From the IMG/VR virus record IMGVR_UViG_3300026257_000024, positions 1-25,413 of that record: DNA of 25,413 bases; one strand, given 5' to 3'. The DNA comes from a virus. Made by a program: the position numbers and the translations under genes. Position 1 is the first letter of the stretch. Each line of letters begins with the position of its first letter. The notes beneath the pieces were generated by a model that ran no database searches, had not been told where the DNA came from, and was given only the letters and a program-made list of their open reading frames with translations. Shown one piece after another: positions 4,707 to 22,293 of this stretch.

Positions 4707-5041
4707 AACCGCAGAGTGCTAAGGGGAAAGGCCGAAGATTCCAACAGTGGGTACGTGACATGCTCATAGAGCATAGAGATGTGCACCCAGAAGATATAGA
4801 GTCACGTAGCATGGGTGCTGGTGGTGAAGATCTCATCATGGCAAGAGATGCTAGACAAAAGTTCCCGTTTAGTATAGAATGTAAGAATGTAGAGAAATTA
4901 AATGTATATGAGGCATATGCACAGGCATGTGCCAATGCAAAGGGTCATGAACCTATCTTGTTTATGAAGAAGAACCATAAGAAACCCCTTGTTGTTGTTG
5001 ATGCCGAATGGTTTATTAAGAATGTTTACAATACCGATTGA
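4703..5041 (+). CDS. PD-(D/E)XK nuclease, Holliday-junction-resolvase-like (112 aa)
   Basis: An N-terminal basic helix (KGKGRRFQQWVRDML) is followed by SMGAGGEDL (Asp43) and PFSIECKN (Glu59, Lys61), the D...ExK catalytic arrangement of small archaeal-Hjc/VRR-like nucleases. The tail ILFMKKNHKKPLVVVDAEWF matches the late strands of this fold. It may cleave branched DNA during replication or packaging, or degrade host DNA. It is coupled to purN by ATGA and overlaps the next gene's start. Confidence 0.75.
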   Translation: MKPQSAKGKGRRFQQWVRDMLIEHRDVHPEDIESRSMGAGGEDLIMARDARQKFPFSIECKNVEKLNVYEAYAQACANAKGHEPILFMKKNHKKPLVVVDAEWFIKNVYNTD

Positions 5042-5597
5042 GTCTTTCAGTGTACCTAACTGGGACCACTGGAAACCAGAAATATTATCTAATCTAACTA
5101 CTGGTAGCACACTAGCAGAGATAAACTCCAGTGGCTACGGTAAGTTTGATGACATGGAGTCGGATTATTTTGACAATAATAATAGTCAAACCCTCCCAAG
5201 ATATTATGATGTCGTTACAGAGGCATTACAACCCGTTCTAGAGGAGTTTGAGGAGTCTTATCCGAGTGATATAAAGATCACAAGTATGTGGTATCAGAAA
5301 ACATTTTCTGGACAGATGCATGGAGTACATAATCACGGTGTTTTAGGTGTGTCTGCTGCCTTCTATATCGAGTTCGATCCACTTATACATAAACCTACTA
5401 CCTTCTATGCACCCTTCCATAATTTTTTTAATGGAGACATGGTATCATATACTCCAGAGGTGAAGGAAGGAGACATAGTATTCTTTCCAAGTTACTTACT
5501 ACATCAACAGGATCCAAACAAGAGTCCTGTTATTAGGACGATAATTTCTTTTAACATCGCAGGTTATACTCCAGTACATCATGAATTACAGAGATAG
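5022..5597 (+). CDS. Putative 2OG-Fe(II) oxygenase (191 aa)
   Basis: Metal ligands fit HGVHNHG (His103 and His105, with His100 as an alternative) and His161 in FFPSYLLHQQ; Arg172 in VIRTIISFN is the expected 2-oxoglutarate anchor. The pattern (HxH, FFPS-x-x-x-H, R-x-x-I-S-F-N) is that of the putative oxygenase group with the ISFN ending. The start chosen is the ATG at 5022, giving MFTIPIESFSVPNW and a 20-nt overlap with the nuclease; an upstream ATG at 4989 lies deep inside that gene. It is the first of three consecutive oxygenase genes. Substrate unknown. Confidence 0.75.
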   Translation: MFTIPIESFSVPNWDHWKPEILSNLTTGSTLAEINSSGYGKFDDMESDYFDNNNSQTLPRYYDVVTEALQPVLEEFEESYPSDIKITSMWYQKTFSGQMHGVHNHGVLGVSAAFYIEFDPLIHKPTTFYAPFHNFFNGDMVSYTPEVKEGDIVFFPSYLLHQQDPNKSPVIRTIISFNIAGYTPVHHELQR

Positions 5598-6096
5598 ATA
5601 TGTCACCGTTGATCTTGAGGATGATGAGTTCTCAAGGATACTTAAAGAGATAGGAGAACCTAAGTATGAACCAACAGAAATCGAGGACGTACGTCAGTCT
5701 TCTGTCGCCTTTATTGAGTCGCAACTCCTCAAAGATGTCATCCAAAGTTATTGTCAGCGAGTTAACGAAGCTGCTAAGTGGCACTTCGATCTCGACTTTC
5801 TGGAGCCTCTACAGATTTCGAAGTATGCAGAGGGAGATAGATATGATTGGCACCAAGACGAATCAGAGTGGTGTAGAAACAAAAGAAAAGAAGAACGAAT
5901 AAGAAAAGTCTCCTTCGTACTTCTTCTGAATGATGACTTCGAAGGTGGAGAGTTTATGTTACTCAATCAAGAGATACCATTAAATAAAGGGTCAGCAATA
6001 TTTTTCCATGCTGACGACTATCATCAGGTTAATGCAGTTACTAAAGGAGAACGTATGAGTTTAGTAGGATGGATACAGGGGCCACCATGGGTATAG
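5581..6096 (+). CDS. 2OG-Fe(II) oxygenase, prolyl-4-hydroxylase-type (171 aa)
   Basis: The P4H-type motif order is complete: YDWHQDES (His91, Asp93), the strand SFVLLLNDDFEGGEF, then YHQVNAVTKGERMSLVGWIQGP (His148, Arg158). The N-D-x-F-x-G-G-E-F block and the closing W-x-Q-G are typical of PKHD-type hydroxylases, which hydroxylate proline or other residues in proteins. It overlaps the previous gene by 17 nt and the next by 10 nt. Target protein unknown. Confidence 0.85.
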   Translation: MNYRDRYVTVDLEDDEFSRILKEIGEPKYEPTEIEDVRQSSVAFIESQLLKDVIQSYCQRVNEAAKWHFDLDFLEPLQISKYAEGDRYDWHQDESEWCRNKRKEERIRKVSFVLLLNDDFEGGEFMLLNQEIPLNKGSAIFFHADDYHQVNAVTKGERMSLVGWIQGPPWV

Positions 6097-6704
6097 ATCA
6101 AGCTATACTTTACGATGGCATGGTTGCCAAACCTCGTACTGATTTTCTGTACACAGAATTCATAGACGAGAAGGCAACTGATGCATTGGTAGATTTTTAT
6201 CACACTCAAGACATCTTTGAGGGTGGTGAAGGGCAGACTATCGATGATCAAGGTGGTGGCATGGTCAACAAAGACATCAAAGACTCCATGGATTATCCTA
6301 TCTTTGTAGGTATCCAAGACCGTAGAGTCAGAGACTTCACTGAGGAAGTCAATCGTGTCTGTCATAACTATGCTGAGAGATTTCCACTGTGTACTAAGAC
6401 AAACATGTGGAAGATGGAAGAGTTCTTTAACCTTCAGTACTATAAACCTGGAGGTGGGTATCATCTATGGCATTGTGAAAGACAATCATCAAGCAGATCT
6501 AACACGTACAGACATCTGGTTTGGGTGGTATACTTAAACGATGTTCCTAATGGAGGTACAGAGTTCTTTCACCAGCAACAATACATAGAAGCAGAGAAGG
6601 CAAAGTGTTGCATCTGGCCATCAGATTGGACATTCACCCACAAAGGACGCAAGTCCGATACTCACGAAAAGATCATAGCAACAGGATGGTATCATTTCAT
6701 ATGA
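6087..6704 (+). CDS. 2OG-Fe(II) oxygenase with HxE ligand pair (205 aa)
   Basis: GGGYHLWHCERQ carries an H-x-E ligand pair (His129, Glu131), followed by the strand LVWVVYLNDVPNGGTEF and CIWPSDWTFTHKGRKS (distal His185), with a basic residue about ten positions on (Lys195) to bind 2-oxoglutarate. Glu in place of Asp is seen in some cyanophage oxygenases. The ATG at 6087 is preferred over 6069: AGGGG lies five bases upstream and the overlap is shorter. It is coupled by ATGA to a 24-codon ORF. Confidence 0.8.
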   Translation: MGIDQAILYDGMVAKPRTDFLYTEFIDEKATDALVDFYHTQDIFEGGEGQTIDDQGGGMVNKDIKDSMDYPIFVGIQDRRVRDFTEEVNRVCHNYAERFPLCTKTNMWKMEEFFNLQYYKPGGGYHLWHCERQSSSRSNTYRHLVWVVYLNDVPNGGTEFFHQQQYIEAEKAKCCIWPSDWTFTHKGRKSDTHEKIIATGWYHFI

Positions 6705-8879: not shown

Positions 8880-9037
8880 AGATTACACAAAAGATTATTG
8901 ATGACCTCACTGAGGCATTAGCACATACCAAGAAGGATGGTACTGAGAACTGGAAAGATGGAGATGAAATAGATGTCTGTCTTGCTGGTACATTTGCAGC
9001 AGATAAATTTATTACATTAATCAATAGATCTAAATGA
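8876..9037 (+). CDS. Small conserved-type protein (53 aa)
   Basis: Preceded by GGGAGG at good spacing, this frame begins MKITQKIIDDLTEALAHTKK and continues with NWKDGDEIDVCLAGTFAADK. The helix-strand composition and coupling on both sides (ATGA at 8876 and 9034) support a real gene, and I recall similar small proteins in other cyanophages. No function is recognised. Confidence 0.7.
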   Translation: MKITQKIIDDLTEALAHTKKDGTENWKDGDEIDVCLAGTFAADKFITLINRSK

Positions 9038-9543
9038 ACATAATCAGGGACTCTATCTCTAAGAAACTACACGATGAATTAAATACTGAGGTCAGATCTT
9101 TAGCAGGTCGTCAGGTTTGGTTGTCTAGTGCAGTAGACTGGTGTGATTCCATCAAGCAAGGTGTTCAGGGTAGTACATTGACCACACCTATGCCTGCTGA
9201 GTTGGGTGATATGTTAACAGAAGAACTAAAGGATCACTTACCCCCTTACGATGAACTGAAGTACTCTTTTTATATTTGGCAAGCAAACTCTGGTATTGCC
9301 ATGCATGATGATAATAACTATAAATTTAGTGGTACTATCTATCTCAATGATGAGTGGTATCCACAATGGGGTGGATTATATGTGTGGATAGATATGGATG
9401 CACCAGATGATGCTGTAGGGCATGCTTTATTACCTAAGGCTCGGACGTGTGTCCTAAATACTCAGAGTGAGTATCATATGGTAACCCCAGTGTCACCATA
9501 TGCTCAAGCACCAAGATTTACAGTACAATTTAGAGCTCAATAG
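9034..9543 (+). CDS. 2OG-Fe(II) oxygenase, prolyl-4-hydroxylase-type (169 aa)
   Basis: SGIAMHDDNNYKFSGTIYLN gives the H-x-D pair (His91, Asp93). The strand TIYLNDEWYPQWGGLYVW, distal His148 in EYHMVTPV and Arg161 in APRFTVQF complete the P4H set. The gene ends in TAG, whose G is the first base of the GTG start of the 1255-aa proline-rich protein, so the two are translationally coupled. That makes the giant protein a natural candidate substrate (inference). It carries a CTAAATA box at 9454-9460. Confidence 0.85.
   Translation: MNIIRDSISKKLHDELNTEVRSLAGRQVWLSSAVDWCDSIKQGVQGSTLTTPMPAELGDMLTEELKDHLPPYDELKYSFYIWQANSGIAMHDDNNYKFSGTIYLNDEWYPQWGGLYVWIDMDAPDDAVGHALLPKARTCVLNTQSEYHMVTPVSPYAQAPRFTVQFRAQ
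9454..9460 (+). promoter_or_regulatory. Possible late promoter box for the giant structural gene
   Basis: CTAAATA lies within the end of the oxygenase gene, 82 nt before the GTG at 9543. It is the only plus-strand CTAAATA noticed inside a coding region; its place just ahead of a likely virion gene makes promoter function plausible. Confidence 0.35.
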
Positions 9544-12500
9544 TGTTAGGTCATACATGTTATAGTTCTGGTCCGATTCCACTCCTACCAGACGGTGCAA
9601 TACCTGGTCAGAATCCTGCTCAATCTCAGGGCACACCTCCACCAGTACCTGTCACGCAGCCTGGTGCAGAGATTAGAACCATAGTTGGTACATGTTATGG
9701 TCCTGCTTTACCTTTAACACCATCAATAGATATACCTCCTTATAGACAGGGAGAACAAGCACCTCCACCTACCATAGATCCTGGCGAAACTATAAGGACT
9801 ATCGTAGCGAGATGTTATCCACCTATAACTCCTGATCCACCTGGTCCACCACCAGATGGTCCACCACCACCTATTATAGAGATACCTAATTTCTGTGACA
9901 TCATACCTTGGGCAGACTTGGGTTTAGATGTACCATCTTTCTGTGGTGAGTTAGATATTATAATTAAACCACCTTTTCCATCACCTGAACTACCTCCATG
10001 GTGGGGAAAGGGTGCTGACTGTAAGCGTTTAGCACCACTGTTGGATATGGATCCACCTGCTGCACGTAAGCATGAAGATTGGAACCAAGGTGCAGAGCAA
10101 CCACCAGACGGTAAGAAGTATGTCTGGGTTGTGCTTAGAGACTATGGAGAAGGTGCATATGCAGTACGTAAGGGTGAAGAATTAGTATGTGACAACGAAC
10201 AGCACCCACTAAACCCTCCATGGGGTAAGTGTGTAGAGGATGCTATCGAGTGTCTCTTTAAACCATATGTTACTGGTACATGGAGACCACCTACTGCTAA
10301 CTGTGAGACATATTACTTTAGAGGTCAGAACTCTACTACAGGTCAGATTTGTGTTAAGAACTGCTTCCCAAATCGTATGCCTATCTATGAGTACAGAAAA
10401 GGTGCTCCAGTAGGTAACATACAGATCATGCCTTTTGGTAGAGGATTCCATAACCGTAGGTTTGTTACTACTAGAGCAGATGGTTCATGGAATGAAAGAA
10501 AGGTACGTTGTGAAGGTGGTAACGCAGTCTTTAATAGTACTAGTACACAGACACAAACTTTTACTGCCAATGGATTGACTATCACTGTCAAGGTCACACC
10601 TATAGATGATGGTGGTGAGTATGATAGTAGATGGTGGGTTGAGTCATGGTCAGGAACCATGCCTGCTATTGGTACTACATGGGAACACTCATGGAATGCT
10701 GGTAAAGGTACAGTATATGTAAAGGTCACTGTTGTTGATGGTGCTGACAGTGGACAAGATCATAGTTATGGTAGAGAGATGGTAGCACCTGCAGGGTATG
10801 ATCGTGTTCATACTGGACCTGCTTTCCATATCTTACAGTACCCTGAGAGGGGCACAGTGCCTCTGTATAAGTTCTATAGTCCTACGACTGTAGATACTTT
10901 CCTTACGACCAATCCAGGTGCTCCAGACACCGAAGGTGCTGGTGAGAGAGCGACTATGAATGCTGCTGGCATGTCACAAGGTGAGATATTAGGGTATGCC
11001 TTTAAGAATAAAGAGGATGCCATTGCATACTTGGGTGAAGACGAACAGATAGTGGAATTGCATAGGTATTTTGCTAACTCTGTTACTAACAGTGCATATA
11101 ATGATCACATGTACTCCATTGTGGAGCAGGGCACTGAGACTCCTCCCAAGTATGGAAAGCGTCAGACATATAGACTACCCACTAACCCTAAGACTTCATA
11201 CATCGTTTCATATAAGATGATGAAGCCTGCTGCTTCTTATAAGAACTCATGGGGTGTTGTTATACACAATAAAGAGTGTACTGAGATCTACTGGACTAAG
11301 ACCATCGAGTCTAATGTTAACCAGAACAGTGAGTTCAGACAGTTTGAGGTTCCATTGTCTGTTCTTAAGACACATCCTGGTCAGGAGATGGGATTCTATC
11401 TCATACCTGATGGGCATGACTATAGTGTAACTAATAACGATGCACCTCAGTTCTATGCGTCTGGTGATGGATGGAAGAGGACAGGAGGTAGTGCTCAGAG
11501 TGATTGGGTGTTCTTCTCTGATCCTCAGATGAATCCAGGTAATAGAAATAAGACCAAGTGGGTAGGTAACAACTGGCAGTGGTGGGAAGACTTACTTGCT
11601 GGTGATGATGACTACGATGACTTTAAGGTACACTATGAGGTATTAGCAGGAGGCGGTGCCTATTATTATGAGGGTGTACAGTGCTATGTCTTTGCAGATC
11701 CTGCACCAGAGAAGATAATGATTGATATAGTTGAGAAGGATAAGTGTTCTACTAATATATTTGATGGTACTTTTGATGATGTACTGTTGACCAGATCAGA
11801 TTGTGGTCCACTAGCACCACCTACTACATGGACTGCAGAGAGTTCTATCATGGGATGTGGTACATGTACTGGTGACTATGTAATGGACATGCATAGGGAG
11901 CAGACACTGAAGGTACTGAAGGGTGCTAGTCTGCAACTGAAATCATTTGGTTGTCTTATCTCTGCACCTGAGCAAGAGTGTATGACCTTCAGGTTCCTTG
12001 TTAAGAAGAATGGTAGTAACGTAGTGGATGAGACCTATGAGTTAGCAACGTTCCCCTTTGTTGGTATGGATATAGGTAACGCTTTTAGTGTTGCTAAGGA
12101 TGACACTGTAACCTTTAGGTTGGAATCGATTGATTCTGGTCCTTACTTCGGCAATGCATCTGCTAACTTTATATTCCTGGCAAATGGTGCTGAGTTCAGT
12201 GGGTCATGGTCTGCTAGGTTGGGTACTATATCTGCTGATGATAAGATTGCTGGTCGTGCTGAGACCTATTCTAGTAACCCTTATGGTGGTGGATCTATTA
12301 AGAAGATGTCTGTTGAGGTATGGGATCATGAGAAGTCAGAGTGGAGTCCTGCTGTTACTGTCTGGGATAATGGACAACAGAATACTAATAATGCTAATGG
12401 TCAGACAGCAGATTGGTCTAATGTATACTTCAGTGGCAACACTTGGAACTGTTCTGGTTTAGACCCATGTCCTGCACCATACTATGAGAATGGTACGACA

Positions 12501-13310
12501 GATCGTAATGGTCATGTACTTACTACTCGTATCAATGCTAATGGTCAGACTACTACTGATGGTATCCAGTATGACAAATTATTTGGACACTCACGTGGTC
12601 TGATTATGAAGGCTGCTGAACCTAATGTTAGGAACACCAGTGACCTAGGTAACATGACTGATTGGGTACATCATTCTATAGGTGACGGTTATACCTCATG
12701 GTTTAATAACAAACAGTTACAGAAGGCAGGTAATGCACAAGATGCTATCAATGACATAGATGCTGTGTATTCAGCAGGTATACAGGCATGGAACGGTGGT
12801 GTCAGTGGGTCTGCATACAATGGATCCTATAGTAAGATGGCATTCTTCCATGACTACGTACTAGGTGCTGCATTGGATGGTACATATAGAACCTTGGTAC
12901 AACCAACAGGTAAGGTACGCATGGCATTCTGGCCCTATGCTGACGAGGGTGATGCAAGTGCAAGAGATAGGTGGGGTTGTGCTATAGAACTATTCGGTTT
13001 GGTTGATGCTGGCAATCACTATAGACAAGGAGACCAATTTGAGTTAGTATGGCCACCTAGGCAACCAAAAGACACTGCTTATCAAGCACTGCCTGGTACT
13101 ACTCCTTACTATCCTAAGGATGATCCCGCTTATTCTTTCCCTGACAGGTTAGAGTTATTGGTACGGGGAGAGAATAATCCAGAGCAGTTCACACCTAGAG
13201 AAGCATTCTATCAAGAGTCACATAACAGAGACTCTAACGTCTGGTTACTCTGTCAGCATAAGCTAGATAGAGTTAAGTTTAGAATCACCATTGATGAGAT
13301 TACAACATGA
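9543..13310 (+). CDS. Large proline-rich multidomain virion/adhesin-type protein (1255 aa)
   Basis: GTG start, overlapping the oxygenase stop (TAGTG). Residues 1-115 are proline-rich with imperfect repeats: TCY/RCY at 5-7, 50-52 and 90-92 and IRTIV at 44-48 and 84-88. Residues 92-115 (from YPPITPDPP) are 14 of 24 proline. Around 440-525 there are DUF5648-like half-repeats (PLYKFYSPTTVDTFLTTNPG and VELHRYF...YNDHMYSI). Around 590-705 there is a DUF4114-like region: GFYLIPDG and WEDLLAGDDDYDDFKVHYEV. The rest is Gly/Asn/Trp-rich beta material. DUF5648 and DUF4114 occur in surface and adhesive proteins, so a host-contact or fibre role fits; virion location is inference. Genes on both sides are 2OG oxygenases or a small coupled protein. 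Confidence 0.7.
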   Translation: MLGHTCYSSGPIPLLPDGAIPGQNPAQSQGTPPPVPVTQPGAEIRTIVGTCYGPALPLTPSIDIPPYRQGEQAPPPTIDPGETIRTIVARCYPPITPDPPGPPPDGPPPPIIEIPNFCDIIPWADLGLDVPSFCGELDIIIKPPFPSPELPPWWGKGADCKRLAPLLDMDPPAARKHEDWNQGAEQPPDGKKYVWVVLRDYGEGAYAVRKGEELVCDNEQHPLNPPWGKCVEDAIECLFKPYVTGTWRPPTANCETYYFRGQNSTTGQICVKNCFPNRMPIYEYRKGAPVGNIQIMPFGRGFHNRRFVTTRADGSWNERKVRCEGGNAVFNSTSTQTQTFTANGLTITVKVTPIDDGGEYDSRWWVESWSGTMPAIGTTWEHSWNAGKGTVYVKVTVVDGADSGQDHSYGREMVAPAGYDRVHTGPAFHILQYPERGTVPLYKFYSPTTVDTFLTTNPGAPDTEGAGERATMNAAGMSQGEILGYAFKNKEDAIAYLGEDEQIVELHRYFANSVTNSAYNDHMYSIVEQGTETPPKYGKRQTYRLPTNPKTSYIVSYKMMKPAASYKNSWGVVIHNKECTEIYWTKTIESNVNQNSEFRQFEVPLSVLKTHPGQEMGFYLIPDGHDYSVTNNDAPQFYASGDGWKRTGGSAQSDWVFFSDPQMNPGNRNKTKWVGNNWQWWEDLLAGDDDYDDFKVHYEVLAGGGAYYYEGVQCYVFADPAPEKIMIDIVEKDKCSTNIFDGTFDDVLLTRSDCGPLAPPTTWTAESSIMGCGTCTGDYVMDMHREQTLKVLKGASLQLKSFGCLISAPEQECMTFRFLVKKNGSNVVDETYELATFPFVGMDIGNAFSVAKDDTVTFRLESIDSGPYFGNASANFIFLANGAEFSGSWSARLGTISADDKIAGRAETYSSNPYGGGSIKKMSVEVWDHEKSEWSPAVTVWDNGQQNTNNANGQTADWSNVYFSGNTWNCSGLDPCPAPYYENGTTDRNGHVLTTRINANGQTTTDGIQYDKLFGHSRGLIMKAAEPNVRNTSDLGNMTDWVHHSIGDGYTSWFNNKQLQKAGNAQDAINDIDAVYSAGIQAWNGGVSGSAYNGSYSKMAFFHDYVLGAALDGTYRTLVQPTGKVRMAFWPYADEGDASARDRWGCAIELFGLVDAGNHYRQGDQFELVWPPRQPKDTAYQALPGTTPYYPKDDPAYSFPDRLELLVRGENNPEQFTPREAFYQESHNRDSNVWLLCQHKLDRVKFRITIDEITT

Positions 13311-13642
13311 GTAACGCTGAAGGATTTGGACCGAAGGCAACTAAGGCAGATAGAGATCTTTATAAGTCTGCTAGAGAGTTGTCTGCTATTCATAAGGTGC
13401 TTAGGAAGCATCCACAGGACAATGCTGGTCGTCGTAAGATGTTAAAGCAACTGAAGAGGTACTATCGTGGTCCTCTTGCTGAACTAGATCGTATTGATAT
13501 GAAGGAACCTACCTTCCCCAAAGATGCTGAGTGGATGAAGACAGATGAGGAACTAGAAGAGATAGAGCAAGAACAGAAGGTTCAGATTAATACAGATAAA
13601 CTTCGTCAATCATTGGGTAAAGATGTTCCAGAAACTAATTAA
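13307..13642 (+). CDS. Highly charged helical protein (111 aa)
   Basis: Coupled to the giant gene by ATGA. The N-terminal half is basic and helical (KSARELSAIHKVLRKH, RRKMLKQLKRYYRGPL); the C-terminal half is acidic (KTDEELEEIEQEQK). There is no known motif. The position directly after a large structural gene suggests a chaperone or minor virion partner (inference). It overlaps the next oxygenase by 20 nt. Confidence 0.65.
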   Translation: MSNAEGFGPKATKADRDLYKSARELSAIHKVLRKHPQDNAGRRKMLKQLKRYYRGPLAELDRIDMKEPTFPKDAEWMKTDEELEEIEQEQKVQINTDKLRQSLGKDVPETN

Positions 13643-14183
13643 TCCTAAGACTGAGACCTATAAGTTAGTTAAGGAGTTCACATTATCACCAGAGTTTCCA
13701 TGGTTCTATGTGGAGAATGCTACACCACAGGATGTATCTAACGATGAGTTCCAGACTGTACCATTCTATAGTCATGTACTGATAGCAAGACCTAAGTGGC
13801 AGGGTATAGGTGGTAACTATATGTTCCCTGAACCTCAGTCAGAGCATTTAACACAGTTCTATCCTCTATTAGAGGAGATTATAGTTGCGAATGAGATACC
13901 AGTCACCACATTGCTCAGATATAATGTGAACTGTACTCATCCACAGGAAGATGATCGGTTATCCACACCACACTTCGATCATCCCTATCCTCACAAGAAT
14001 ATAGTCGTATATCTCCAAGGCGAAGGTGACACAGTTTGTTTCCCAGATGGAGTTGACCCTTCATGGTCAAATGCTGACAGTTTCAGTCCAGAAGAGGATG
14101 ATGTGCTATTATTACAGGGACTACACTGCATGAGACCACCTGAAACAGGAAGGAGGATTATTCTAGTTGCTACATTCCTTTAA
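13623..14183 (+). CDS. Putative 2OG-Fe(II) oxygenase (186 aa)
   Basis: STPHFDHPYPHKNIVVYLQ gives H-x-D (His117, Asp119). EEDDVLLLQGLHCMRPPETG has the distal His168, and Arg177/178 in GRRIILVATF would bind 2-oxoglutarate. The fold order and length fit the superfamily, though it is distant from the P4H-type enzymes upstream. It closes the unit with the giant protein and is followed by a new promoter. Confidence 0.75.
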   Translation: MFQKLINPKTETYKLVKEFTLSPEFPWFYVENATPQDVSNDEFQTVPFYSHVLIARPKWQGIGGNYMFPEPQSEHLTQFYPLLEEIIVANEIPVTTLLRYNVNCTHPQEDDRLSTPHFDHPYPHKNIVVYLQGEGDTVCFPDGVDPSWSNADSFSPEEDDVLLLQGLHCMRPPETGRRIILVATFL

Positions 14184-14401: not shown

Positions 14402-14788
14402 ATGTCTATTAAATCAACAATCGCTGCTATTGCAGCAAGCCCATTTCTACTCGCTGGAGCCGCTTTTGCTGGTCCTTATGTGAACGTAGAAAGCAACCTC
14501 TCTTATCCAGATGGAGACTACTCTGCAGCAACTACTGACGTTCACGTTGGGTATGAAGGTGGAGAAGGACAACTAGGATATTATGTCCAAGCTGGTCCAG
14601 CATTCGTACATAGCGAAACTGATTCTGATACAGAAACAGAATTCTCTGGTAAAGTTGGTCTTAACGTAGCTGCTACTGAATCTCTTGGAGTATACGGCGA
14701 AATCGCTGGTATCTCTAATGGCGAAGACAGTGGTGGAGACACCATCATTGACTGGGGTGCTAAAGTTGGTGCTAAGTTCACTTTCTGA
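14402..14788 (+). CDS. Exported outer-membrane-like beta-rich protein (128 aa)
   Basis: A signal peptide is clear: MSIKSTIAAIAASPFLLAG then AAFA followed by GPYVNV, giving a likely cleavage after residue 23. The mature part alternates polar and aromatic or hydrophobic residues in short strands (LGYYVQAGPAFV, SGKVGLNVAA, SLGVYGEIAG) and ends in aromatic Phe (KVGAKFTF), the hallmark of an outer-membrane beta-barrel C-terminus. It resembles a small porin or OmpW-like protein. The longer frame from GTG 14318 is rejected because the signal peptide starts at 14402. Its own promoter and terminator make it an independent cassette. Confidence 0.7.
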   Translation: MSIKSTIAAIAASPFLLAGAAFAGPYVNVESNLSYPDGDYSAATTDVHVGYEGGEGQLGYYVQAGPAFVHSETDSDTETEFSGKVGLNVAATESLGVYGEIAGISNGEDSGGDTIIDWGAKVGAKFTF

Positions 14789-16898: not shown

Positions 16899-17602
16899 CA
16901 AATAAAGTATGTGTAATCTCCGTCACTCCAGATGCTGAGAGAACTATAGGATACATAGCACGTGTATCTAACCCAAAGAACCAGGACAACGAGAAGGTCT
17001 CTGGTCTTTTAAAGTATTGCATTAAGCATGGACACTGGTCTGTCTTTGAGCAAGCACACATGACTGTTGAGATTAATACAACACGTGGACTTGCTGCACA
17101 GATACTGAGACACAGGTCATTCACATACCAAGAGTTCAGTCAGAGGTATGCTGATTCATCTTTACTAGGTGATGAGATACCACTACCAGAACTAAGAAGA
17201 CAGGACACTAAGAACCGTCAGAATAGTATCAATGATCTTGACCCTAAGGTGGTCAACAAGTATGAGATACTCATGGCAGATCACTTCAGACATGGTATGG
17301 ATCTCTATCAGCAGATGCTTAATGATGGTATCGCTAAGGAGTGTGCTAGGTTTGTACTACCACTAGCGACACCCACTAGGTTATACATGACAGGTAGTGT
17401 ACGTAGTTGGATTCATTATATAAACTTACGCTCTGCTAATGGTACTCAGAAAGAGCACATGGACATTGCTAATACTATTAAGAGACACTTTGTGTGTCAG
17501 TTTCCAGTAGTATCAGAAGCATTAGAGTGGTGTGATAATGAATGTGATTGTAAAGAAGATGATTACTGGGGTGATACACAACCCTGCCTACGTATAGATT
17601 GA
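16895..17602 (+). CDS. thyX: Flavin-dependent thymidylate synthase
   Basis: ThyX makes dTMP from dUMP with FAD and methylenetetrahydrofolate. The signature RHR-x7-S is present as Arg72-His73-Arg74 to Ser82 (RHRSFTYQEFSQRY), and the C-terminal region has RSWIHYINLRSANGTQKE, the second substrate-binding block. The length of 235 aa is normal. It provides thymidine for phage DNA, joining purC, purM and purN as a nucleotide supply set. ATGA upstream and TGATG downstream couple it to its neighbours. Confidence 0.95.
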   Translation: MTNKVCVISVTPDAERTIGYIARVSNPKNQDNEKVSGLLKYCIKHGHWSVFEQAHMTVEINTTRGLAAQILRHRSFTYQEFSQRYADSSLLGDEIPLPELRRQDTKNRQNSINDLDPKVVNKYEILMADHFRHGMDLYQQMLNDGIAKECARFVLPLATPTRLYMTGSVRSWIHYINLRSANGTQKEHMDIANTIKRHFVCQFPVVSEALEWCDNECDCKEDDYWGDTQPCLRID

Positions 17603-18189
17603 TGGCAGAAGTAGTACCAGCATTTTCTTCACCCATCTATGTGACAGGTGAGGACAAAGACTTTCCATTGATTAACTGGGAGTGTCTAGAGTTCACACCA
17701 TATAATGTAGAGAGTGTAGGATACCGTACAGTTGATCAGCATGTGTTAGACTCATTCCCTGACTTAGAGGGGTGGGTCTTTCAGCATGTATTGGACTATG
17801 TTATTGGTGCAATGGGAGTTGATCCTGATCTACATTGGCCTGAGATAACATGCTCATGGATCAACAAGTATAAGAAGGGACAAGCATCAGTACCTCATCA
17901 CCATGCTAACAGCATGTACTCAGGTAATATATTCTTGCAAGGAGACACAGGTAACTTAGTGTTTGAGAAACCTAAACATATGGTTGTAGAACCCACGCTC
18001 TCCCAACAGAACCTATATAATTCTACTAGCTTTACTTTACCACCAATAAAGTCAGTGCTATGTATGTTTCCGTCTGATCTTATGCATTACACCTTGCCAA
18101 ATGAATCAGAATCGGATAGAATAACACTCTCCTTTAATGTAATGGTTAGAGGAACACCACGATGGATAGAAGACAATGCCCACGTATGA
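17602..18189 (+). CDS. Putative 2OG-Fe(II) oxygenase (195 aa)
   Basis: SVPHHHANSMYSGNIFLQ (His99-His101) and CMFPSDLMHYTLPNESESDR with LSFN (distal His162, Arg173) match the putative 2OG-Fe(II) oxygenase group with the H-x-H and FPS-x-x-x-H patterns. The ATG at 17602 is chosen over TTG 17599; it overlaps the thyX stop as TGATG. It resembles the enzyme at 5022 in motif style. Substrate unknown. Confidence 0.8.
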   Translation: MAEVVPAFSSPIYVTGEDKDFPLINWECLEFTPYNVESVGYRTVDQHVLDSFPDLEGWVFQHVLDYVIGAMGVDPDLHWPEITCSWINKYKKGQASVPHHHANSMYSGNIFLQGDTGNLVFEKPKHMVVEPTLSQQNLYNSTSFTLPPIKSVLCMFPSDLMHYTLPNESESDRITLSFNVMVRGTPRWIEDNAHV

Positions 18190-21446: not shown

Positions 21447-21742
21447 TGAAGAAATGGTTACTAGCATTACCTTTGGTCATGTTTGCAGCACCTGCTCAAG
21501 CAGTAACATGGGAACAACTAGTAGAGTGGGCAGAAACGCCCACTCATTACCATTCTCCACCATATCACCATCACCATGGTCATTCACATTACCAGGAACG
21601 TCGTTGGTGTAATCAGATAGTATATAAGGAAGAGTACGTACCAGGCAGACCTGATTACCATGGTAATTGGATGCCAGGACATGTTAACAAGTGGCAAGAG
21701 ACAAATAGGATCCCATGTAGACGGAGGAGACATTATCACTGA
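21446..21742 (+). CDS. Exported His-rich protein (98 aa)
   Basis: The signal peptide MKKWLLALPLVMFAAPAQA is followed by VTWEQ, with cleavage likely after residue 19. The mature protein has a histidine cluster (residues about 35-50, with HHHHGHSHY), two cysteines that could form a disulfide, and a basic end RRRRHYH. This suggests metal binding (Zn, Cu, Ni or Fe) in the periplasm or at the cell surface. The true ATG is 21446 with AGGAAGG upstream; TTG 21443 is rejected. The function is otherwise unknown. Confidence 0.7.
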   Translation: MKKWLLALPLVMFAAPAQAVTWEQLVEWAETPTHYHSPPYHHHHGHSHYQERRWCNQIVYKEEYVPGRPDYHGNWMPGHVNKWQETNRIPCRRRRHYH

Positions 21743-22293
21743 TGCTATATCAAACATATAATAATCCTGAAGCAAAGGAAATGAATCCTAAGCTTCATGA
21801 AAGTGTGAAGAAATACGTTGTTACTGACCTTGCTAAGGGTGGTGCATCAAGAACAGAATTTAACTTCCATGAGAAGAAAATAGACGACCTAAGTCGTCTT
21901 TTTAATTGGATAGAAAATGTGTTACCTCAAGCAGCATTTCATTTCGCTCAGGGTAGTGTTGATGATAAATATGATCCAACTCTATTAGGGTTTGATCCAA
22001 AAAGATTTAAGATAGCAGAGTGTTGGGGTATAGAGTTTAACAAAGGAGATACTGTAGAAGCACACAACCATTTCCCATACTCCATGTCATTCTGTTACTA
22101 TGTTAATGTACCAGACAAGGACACACCACTGGTTCTCTTTAATGAACTAGGAAATAGTAGTGACATGATGGGTGAAGCAGTTCCTGTTGAGGATGGTATG
22201 CTATGCTTCTTCCATTCTAAGACATTTCACTTCGTACCTCCGAGTCAGAGCGACGGACGTTGTACTATCGTAGGAAATATATTATATAATTGA
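21742..22293 (+). CDS. Putative 2OG-Fe(II) oxygenase (183 aa), paralogue of 2352-2858
   Basis: AHNHFPYSMSFCYYVNVP (His108, His110) and GMLCFFHSKTFHFVPPSQS (His163) with Arg173 before CTIVGNI show the superfamily ligands. By eye the core (ECWGIEFNKGD, YYVNVP, PLVLF, DGMLCFF, FVPP, VGN) follows the protein at 2352 block by block. It is coupled by TGATG to the His-rich gene. It is the last plus-strand gene before the convergent baseplate genes. Substrate unknown. Confidence 0.78.
   Translation: MLYQTYNNPEAKEMNPKLHESVKKYVVTDLAKGGASRTEFNFHEKKIDDLSRLFNWIENVLPQAAFHFAQGSVDDKYDPTLLGFDPKRFKIAECWGIEFNKGDTVEAHNHFPYSMSFCYYVNVPDKDTPLVLFNELGNSSDMMGEAVPVEDGMLCFFHSKTFHFVPPSQSDGRCTIVGNILYN

Follow-up and report, generated by a model that had tools for sequence, protein, structure and literature searches.

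A prolyl-hydroxylase-fold oxygenase gene beside a conserved giant and small protein pair in T4-like cyanophages

T4-like cyanophages carry a conserved two-gene unit, consisting of a giant protein and a small protein, and the genes that flank this unit are exchangeable. We describe the unit here in a marine cyanobacterial virus, on a stretch of 25,413 bases with about 40 genes that match T4-like cyanophages (Kyanoviridae; IMG/VR record IMGVR_UViG_3300026257_000024, positions 1-25,413; hereafter the window). In this lineage the gene directly upstream of the giant encodes a 2OG-Fe(II) oxygenase with the predicted fold of a protein prolyl hydroxylase (Table 1). The best single reading is that this enzyme hydroxylates the proline-rich N-terminal stalk of the giant, which is plausible and has comparative support, and to which we give somewhat less than an even chance.

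Table 1. Features of the locus in window coordinates.
Feature	Coordinates	Strand	Basis
2OG-Fe(II) oxygenase, predicted protein-prolyl-hydroxylase fold, 169 aa	9034..9543	+	Pfam 2OG-FeII_Oxy_3/4 above cut-off
Giant protein, 1255 aa, GTG start, phrog_26996	9543..13310	+	PHROG 1459 bits
N-terminal region of giant, three Cys-Tyr/proline repeat units	9543..9932	+	CY at residues 6, 51, 91; alignment and counts
Proline tract of giant, residues 92-115, putative hydroxylation target	9816..9887	+	13 prolines in 24 residues
DUF5648-like stretch of giant, residues 417-459	10791..10919	+	below Pfam cut-off
DUF4114-like domain of giant, residues 612-696	11376..11630	+	E 4.6e-5, just below Pfam cut-off
Small partner, 111 aa, phrog_24392	13307..13642	+	PHROG 93 bits
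Second 2OG-Fe(II)-type protein, 186 aa, phrog_274	13623..14183	+	slot between small partner and Phage_OMP gene
Phage_OMP/DUF680-type protein, apparent signal peptide	14403..14788	+	phrog_417; Pfam Phage_OMP in homologue; synteny

The giant and its small partner form a conserved pair

Scans of viral contigs yielded 120 distinct homologues of the giant after deduplication. Downstream DNA could be read at 118 of these loci, and the small gene follows directly at 117 of them; at the one exception (L043) it appears in another gene call. The two genes are usually offset by -1, -4 or +2, and the small partner has the conserved motif D..GR.KMLK. In the window both families (phrog_26996 and phrog_24392) were matched in adjacent genes. 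The right border of the locus is constant, a Phage_OMP/DUF680 protein and then glutaredoxin, and in many loci psbA is found to the left of the giant. The isolates P-RSM6, S-SZBM1, S-WAM1 and P-TIM40 carry direct homologues of both genes, with order and locus as in the window. In these isolates the gene upstream of the giant, unlike that of the window, encodes something other than a 2OG oxygenase. Downstream of the pair they vary, with 2OG genes of two different types, a tryptophan halogenase gene, or neither.

The slot directly upstream of the giant was readable in 86 loci; it holds a 2OG gene in 11 of them, with four subfamilies represented, and a tryptophan-halogenase-like gene in 12. The enzyme type of the window is restricted in this slot to the window and its nearest relatives. 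The slot that separates the small gene from the OMP gene holds 2OG genes in 37 of 115 loci and halogenase-like genes in 9, and the type of the second enzyme (phrog_274) recurs there in other lineages. At least one 2OG or halogenase-like flanking gene is present in 46 of the 82 loci readable on both sides; many loci behind all these slot counts are related, and the counts are therefore not independent. The original prediction had taken hydroxylase, giant, small partner and second hydroxylase as one possible module. This order is confined to the window and its nearest relatives, and the genes do separate: the four isolates have the giant without this enzyme, and other relatives of the enzyme occur without the giant. 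Another gene often found upstream of the giant, phrog_591 (L004:4326-5015; L003:4532-5152; L249:3423-4094), has an HEGWH (HExxH-like) motif and an apparent signal peptide and is possibly an exported metalloprotease.

The three Cys-Tyr/proline repeat units at the N-terminus of the giant are conserved. A proline-rich, repeated N-terminus had been predicted and is present; the tract at residues 92-115 holds 13 prolines, not the 14 first counted. The GTG start is supported by orthologues that begin at the same position (MSVQGHTCY, MTLGHTCY). A search for Cys-Tyr repeats in other phage proteins with a 140-aa query from one giant (L081) gave no match at E 0.01. The core is modelled at moderate confidence (mean pLDDT 74.5) as a chain of beta-sandwich domains. 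Its DUF4114-like part is also found in relatives and has a fold match to an Orpheovirus DUF4114 protein, and the DUF5648-like match is stronger in the giants of L081 and L058, yet still below cut-off. No solved structure matching the giant by sequence was found, and the fold search with its model gave no strong match, with weak pilin-like sandwiches only (Z < 7). The giant may have a surface or adhesin-like role.

That the giant is part of the virion, as originally proposed, is unsupported. In the LC-MS proteome of S-SZBM1 virions, which comprises 30 proteins, the homologous giant SSZBM1_92 and small protein SSZBM1_91 are missing and the neighbour SSZBM1_90 is present (PMC9146016, Table 1); this is one study of a homologue's phage, and a low-copy protein could escape detection. 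The giant gene also lies in the psbA region outside the structural gene block, between psbA-side genes and Phage_OMP, glutaredoxin, thyX and phoH.

At this locus about 280 isolates have a PA14-type protein, which has a small partner of its own. The Synechococcus phage PA14-domain protein T4-GC1038 and the small gene GC441 downstream of it likewise overlap, by 1 nt, and lie like the giant pair between psbA/psbD and DUF680-nrdC. These PA14 proteins differ from the giants in N-terminus and overall architecture and have no Cys-Tyr/proline repeats in those examined. We rejected them as orthologues of the giant because the similarity is partial and extends to some giants only. One paper names a PA14-domain gene separately from the single virion gene in a Synechococcus-enriched set (PMC3037559), which adds little, and the S-P4 annotation 'structural protein with PA14 domain' comes with no basis given. 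RefSeq cyanophage records (NC_021072, NC_020859 and others; L244, L245) give the name 'major head protein' to the PA14-type protein next to psbD. This is apparently an annotation error that has spread between records (S-TIM4 gp220 'precursor of major head subunit').

The upstream enzyme and the proline content of the giant

All four open reading frames of the predicted module and their overlaps are present. The stop codon of the enzyme (TAG, 9541-9543) has its G in common with the GTG of the giant (9543-9545). Strict coupling had been read as the sign of a functional pair. This argument fails: in the window 15 of the 39 neighbouring gene pairs overlap by 1 or 4 nt, and thus the overlap of enzyme and giant alone is ordinary. 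Their adjacency by itself is likewise unsurprising, since the window has at least 8 2OG-Fe(II)-type open reading frames among its genes, six of them elsewhere (2352-2858, 4989-5597, 5581-6096, 6069-6704, 17599-18189 and 21742-22293). By chance, ~38% of gene pairs should have at least one flanking 2OG gene, and ~4% should have them on both sides.

The AlphaFold2 model of the enzyme (pLDDT 95.3) is a double-stranded beta-helix that is nearest to protein prolyl hydroxylases. The closest solved structure is P. putida PPHD (4j25; Z 18.5 over 158 residues, 2.5 A), followed by PHD2 (Z 18.1), PPHD with EF-Tu (4iw3; 18.0) and Trichoplax PHD (17.7). Other 2OG enzymes stand less than 2 Z units behind in this ranking (SnoN, 17.0; PiuC, 16.9). 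A sequence-profile search of the PDB also returned the hydroxylase 9blq and the P4H-domain protein 9ei6. Residues H91, D93, H148 and R161 (HxD...H...R) are invariant in relatives, over 43 sequences; by sequence position, H91, D93 and H148 would form the iron triad and R161 would be the basic residue for 2-oxoglutarate. The same fold and residues are found in P. putida PPHD and in animal PHD2/EGLN1, at ~18% identity to the window enzyme, which is known here from its sequence and predicted model. The known substrates of these two enzymes are EF-Tu for PPHD and HIF for PHD2. The earlier designation as a P4H-type oxygenase is supported by the predicted model and the alignment, in that the fold is that of protein prolyl hydroxylases and the catalytic residues are intact. 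Fold and residues are consistent with a protein prolyl hydroxylase, and the substrate is not proved thereby. An NCBIfam scan of the four proteins gave no useful match; the match to the YhhC cyclophane oxygenase (E 0.085) is not significant.

A comparative link exists between the upstream slot and the N-terminus of the giant. Proline makes up 24.9% of the first 160 residues in giants that directly follow a 2OG gene and 18.4% in the others. In a phylogenetic regression of this proline fraction on the tree of the giants' core (85 giants), an upstream 2OG gene adds 0.045 (t=4.9, p=5e-6), for a span of 160 residues that was fixed with the ranking already known; with the span cut to the first 100 residues, t is no more than 1.8. 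Proline is the sole one of the 20 amino acids with |t|>2.2, and past residue 300 of the giant no effect of an upstream 2OG gene on proline was found. The effect holds when any one upstream enzyme type is omitted (t 3.9-4.7), and 0 of 3000 random clade-wise traits matched it. G+C content as a confounder had no effect. With genes of other types in the upstream slot, proline is not raised; for upstream halogenases the effect is negative (t -2.6), and downstream 2OG genes are weakly linked to proline (t 1.8). Upstream 2OG genes were gained in three or four independent lineages only, and the true sample is therefore small; with four lineages, a sign test reaches no better than 0.06. Three giants (L272, L273, L086) combine a high proline content with the absence of a 2OG gene directly upstream, in a clade whose relatives have one. 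Two of the four upstream enzyme types have HxH, not HxD, as read by eye. The link between an upstream 2OG gene and N-terminal proline is suggestive, not proven. Two further giants with a proline-rich N-terminus (L091, L093) are on contigs that stop 200-300 nt upstream, where a 2OG gene is predicted.

Readings of the locus

The conserved part of the locus is a giant of several beta-sandwich domains, whose N-terminus carries Cys-Tyr/proline repeats, together with a small partner that would be made right after it. The flanking genes would be exchanged between lineages and often encode oxygen-using modifying enzymes. In the lineage of the window a 2OG oxygenase of predicted prolyl-hydroxylase fold would have been inserted directly upstream of the giant, and the two are probably produced together, because the stop codon of one overlaps the start codon of the other. 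The enzyme would then hydroxylate prolines of the giant's N-terminal stalk (residues ~1-160, above all 92-115), and this would stiffen the stalk or change its binding. Catalysis by the enzyme, its substrate and site, the role of the small protein and the place of the giant, in the virion or in the infected cell, we infer. From the original idea of a surface protein that is hydroxylated after translation, hydroxylation draws support from the predicted fold and the proline link among the 85 giants, and virion location and a strict module are not supported.

The main alternative is a coincidence at an insertion hot spot, in which the enzyme has nothing to do with the giant and works on a small molecule or a target in the host. 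The abundance of such genes speaks for it: 2OG genes make up 58 of 903 genes (~6%) in four complete giant-bearing isolates and number up to 24 in S-SCSM1 (PMC9602691), and the psbA region is described as a hot spot in a published study (PMC3037559). Enzyme and giant also occur apart freely, and gene overlaps are common in the window. However, a hot spot does not predict an excess that is specific to proline and to the N-terminus when a 2OG gene lies upstream, nor the frequent halogenase-like genes in both slots. We hold this coincidence to be a serious possibility that is nonetheless doubtful. A broader reading takes the whole locus as a modular modification system, in which exchangeable 2OG and flavin-dependent halogenase-like enzymes vary the conserved giant with its partner, and the giant's sequence is adapted in each lineage; in this wide form it seems unlikely to us.

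Two other substrates have to be weighed. PPHD, solved also with EF-Tu, is among the nearest structures, and the enzyme might act as PPHD does and hydroxylate EF-Tu or another protein of host translation, and so tune host translation during infection. The fold is, however, common to PHD-type enzymes irrespective of substrate, and this role leaves the place of the gene and the proline link unexplained; we regard it as improbable. More remote still, and in our view very improbable, is that the ancestral substrate was a large phage tail protein and that tail proteins are modified by the enzyme to this day, with its position next to the giant being secondary. Outside the giant locus the relatives of the enzyme have no proline-rich neighbour, which counts against hydroxylation of the stalk, and several lie upstream of a very large tail protein (4027-aa class) at a distance of 0-2 genes, sometimes with a halogenase-like gene between. 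Against this, that tail protein has only 4% proline, and the corresponding tail gene is outside the window. Since it is not proline-rich, the enzyme family need not target proline-rich proteins in general. Enzyme relatives near the tail protein MPLTRLDNL... were seen in L099, L102, L113, L104, L105, L107, L108 and L111 and in the isolates S-H9-2 (L341) and S-RIM32 (L006), and in some contigs the gene between the two is tryptophan-halogenase-like.

Precedents and meaning for cyanophage biology

The nearest precedent for a viral prolyl hydroxylase is the prolyl 4-hydroxylase of chlorovirus PBCV-1, whose hosts are green algae, unlike those of the window's virus. We know of no tie of this enzyme to one neighbouring giant gene. 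It converts proline to hydroxyproline in peptides in a sequence-specific manner, and hydroxyproline was undetected in PBCV-1 virions (PMC7019647). Our literature search found no report of hydroxyproline or peptidyl hydroxylation in a bacteriophage, which is not proof of absence.

The 2OG genes of cyanophages are numerous and uncharacterised (PMC9602691). For none of these oxygenases is a substrate known, and an enzyme linked to its substrate would permit a concrete test. If hydroxylation of the giant's stalk by its upstream neighbour is true, it would suggest that a bacterial virus carries out peptidyl hydroxylation, and it could account for the halogenase-like genes that are found in the same slots.
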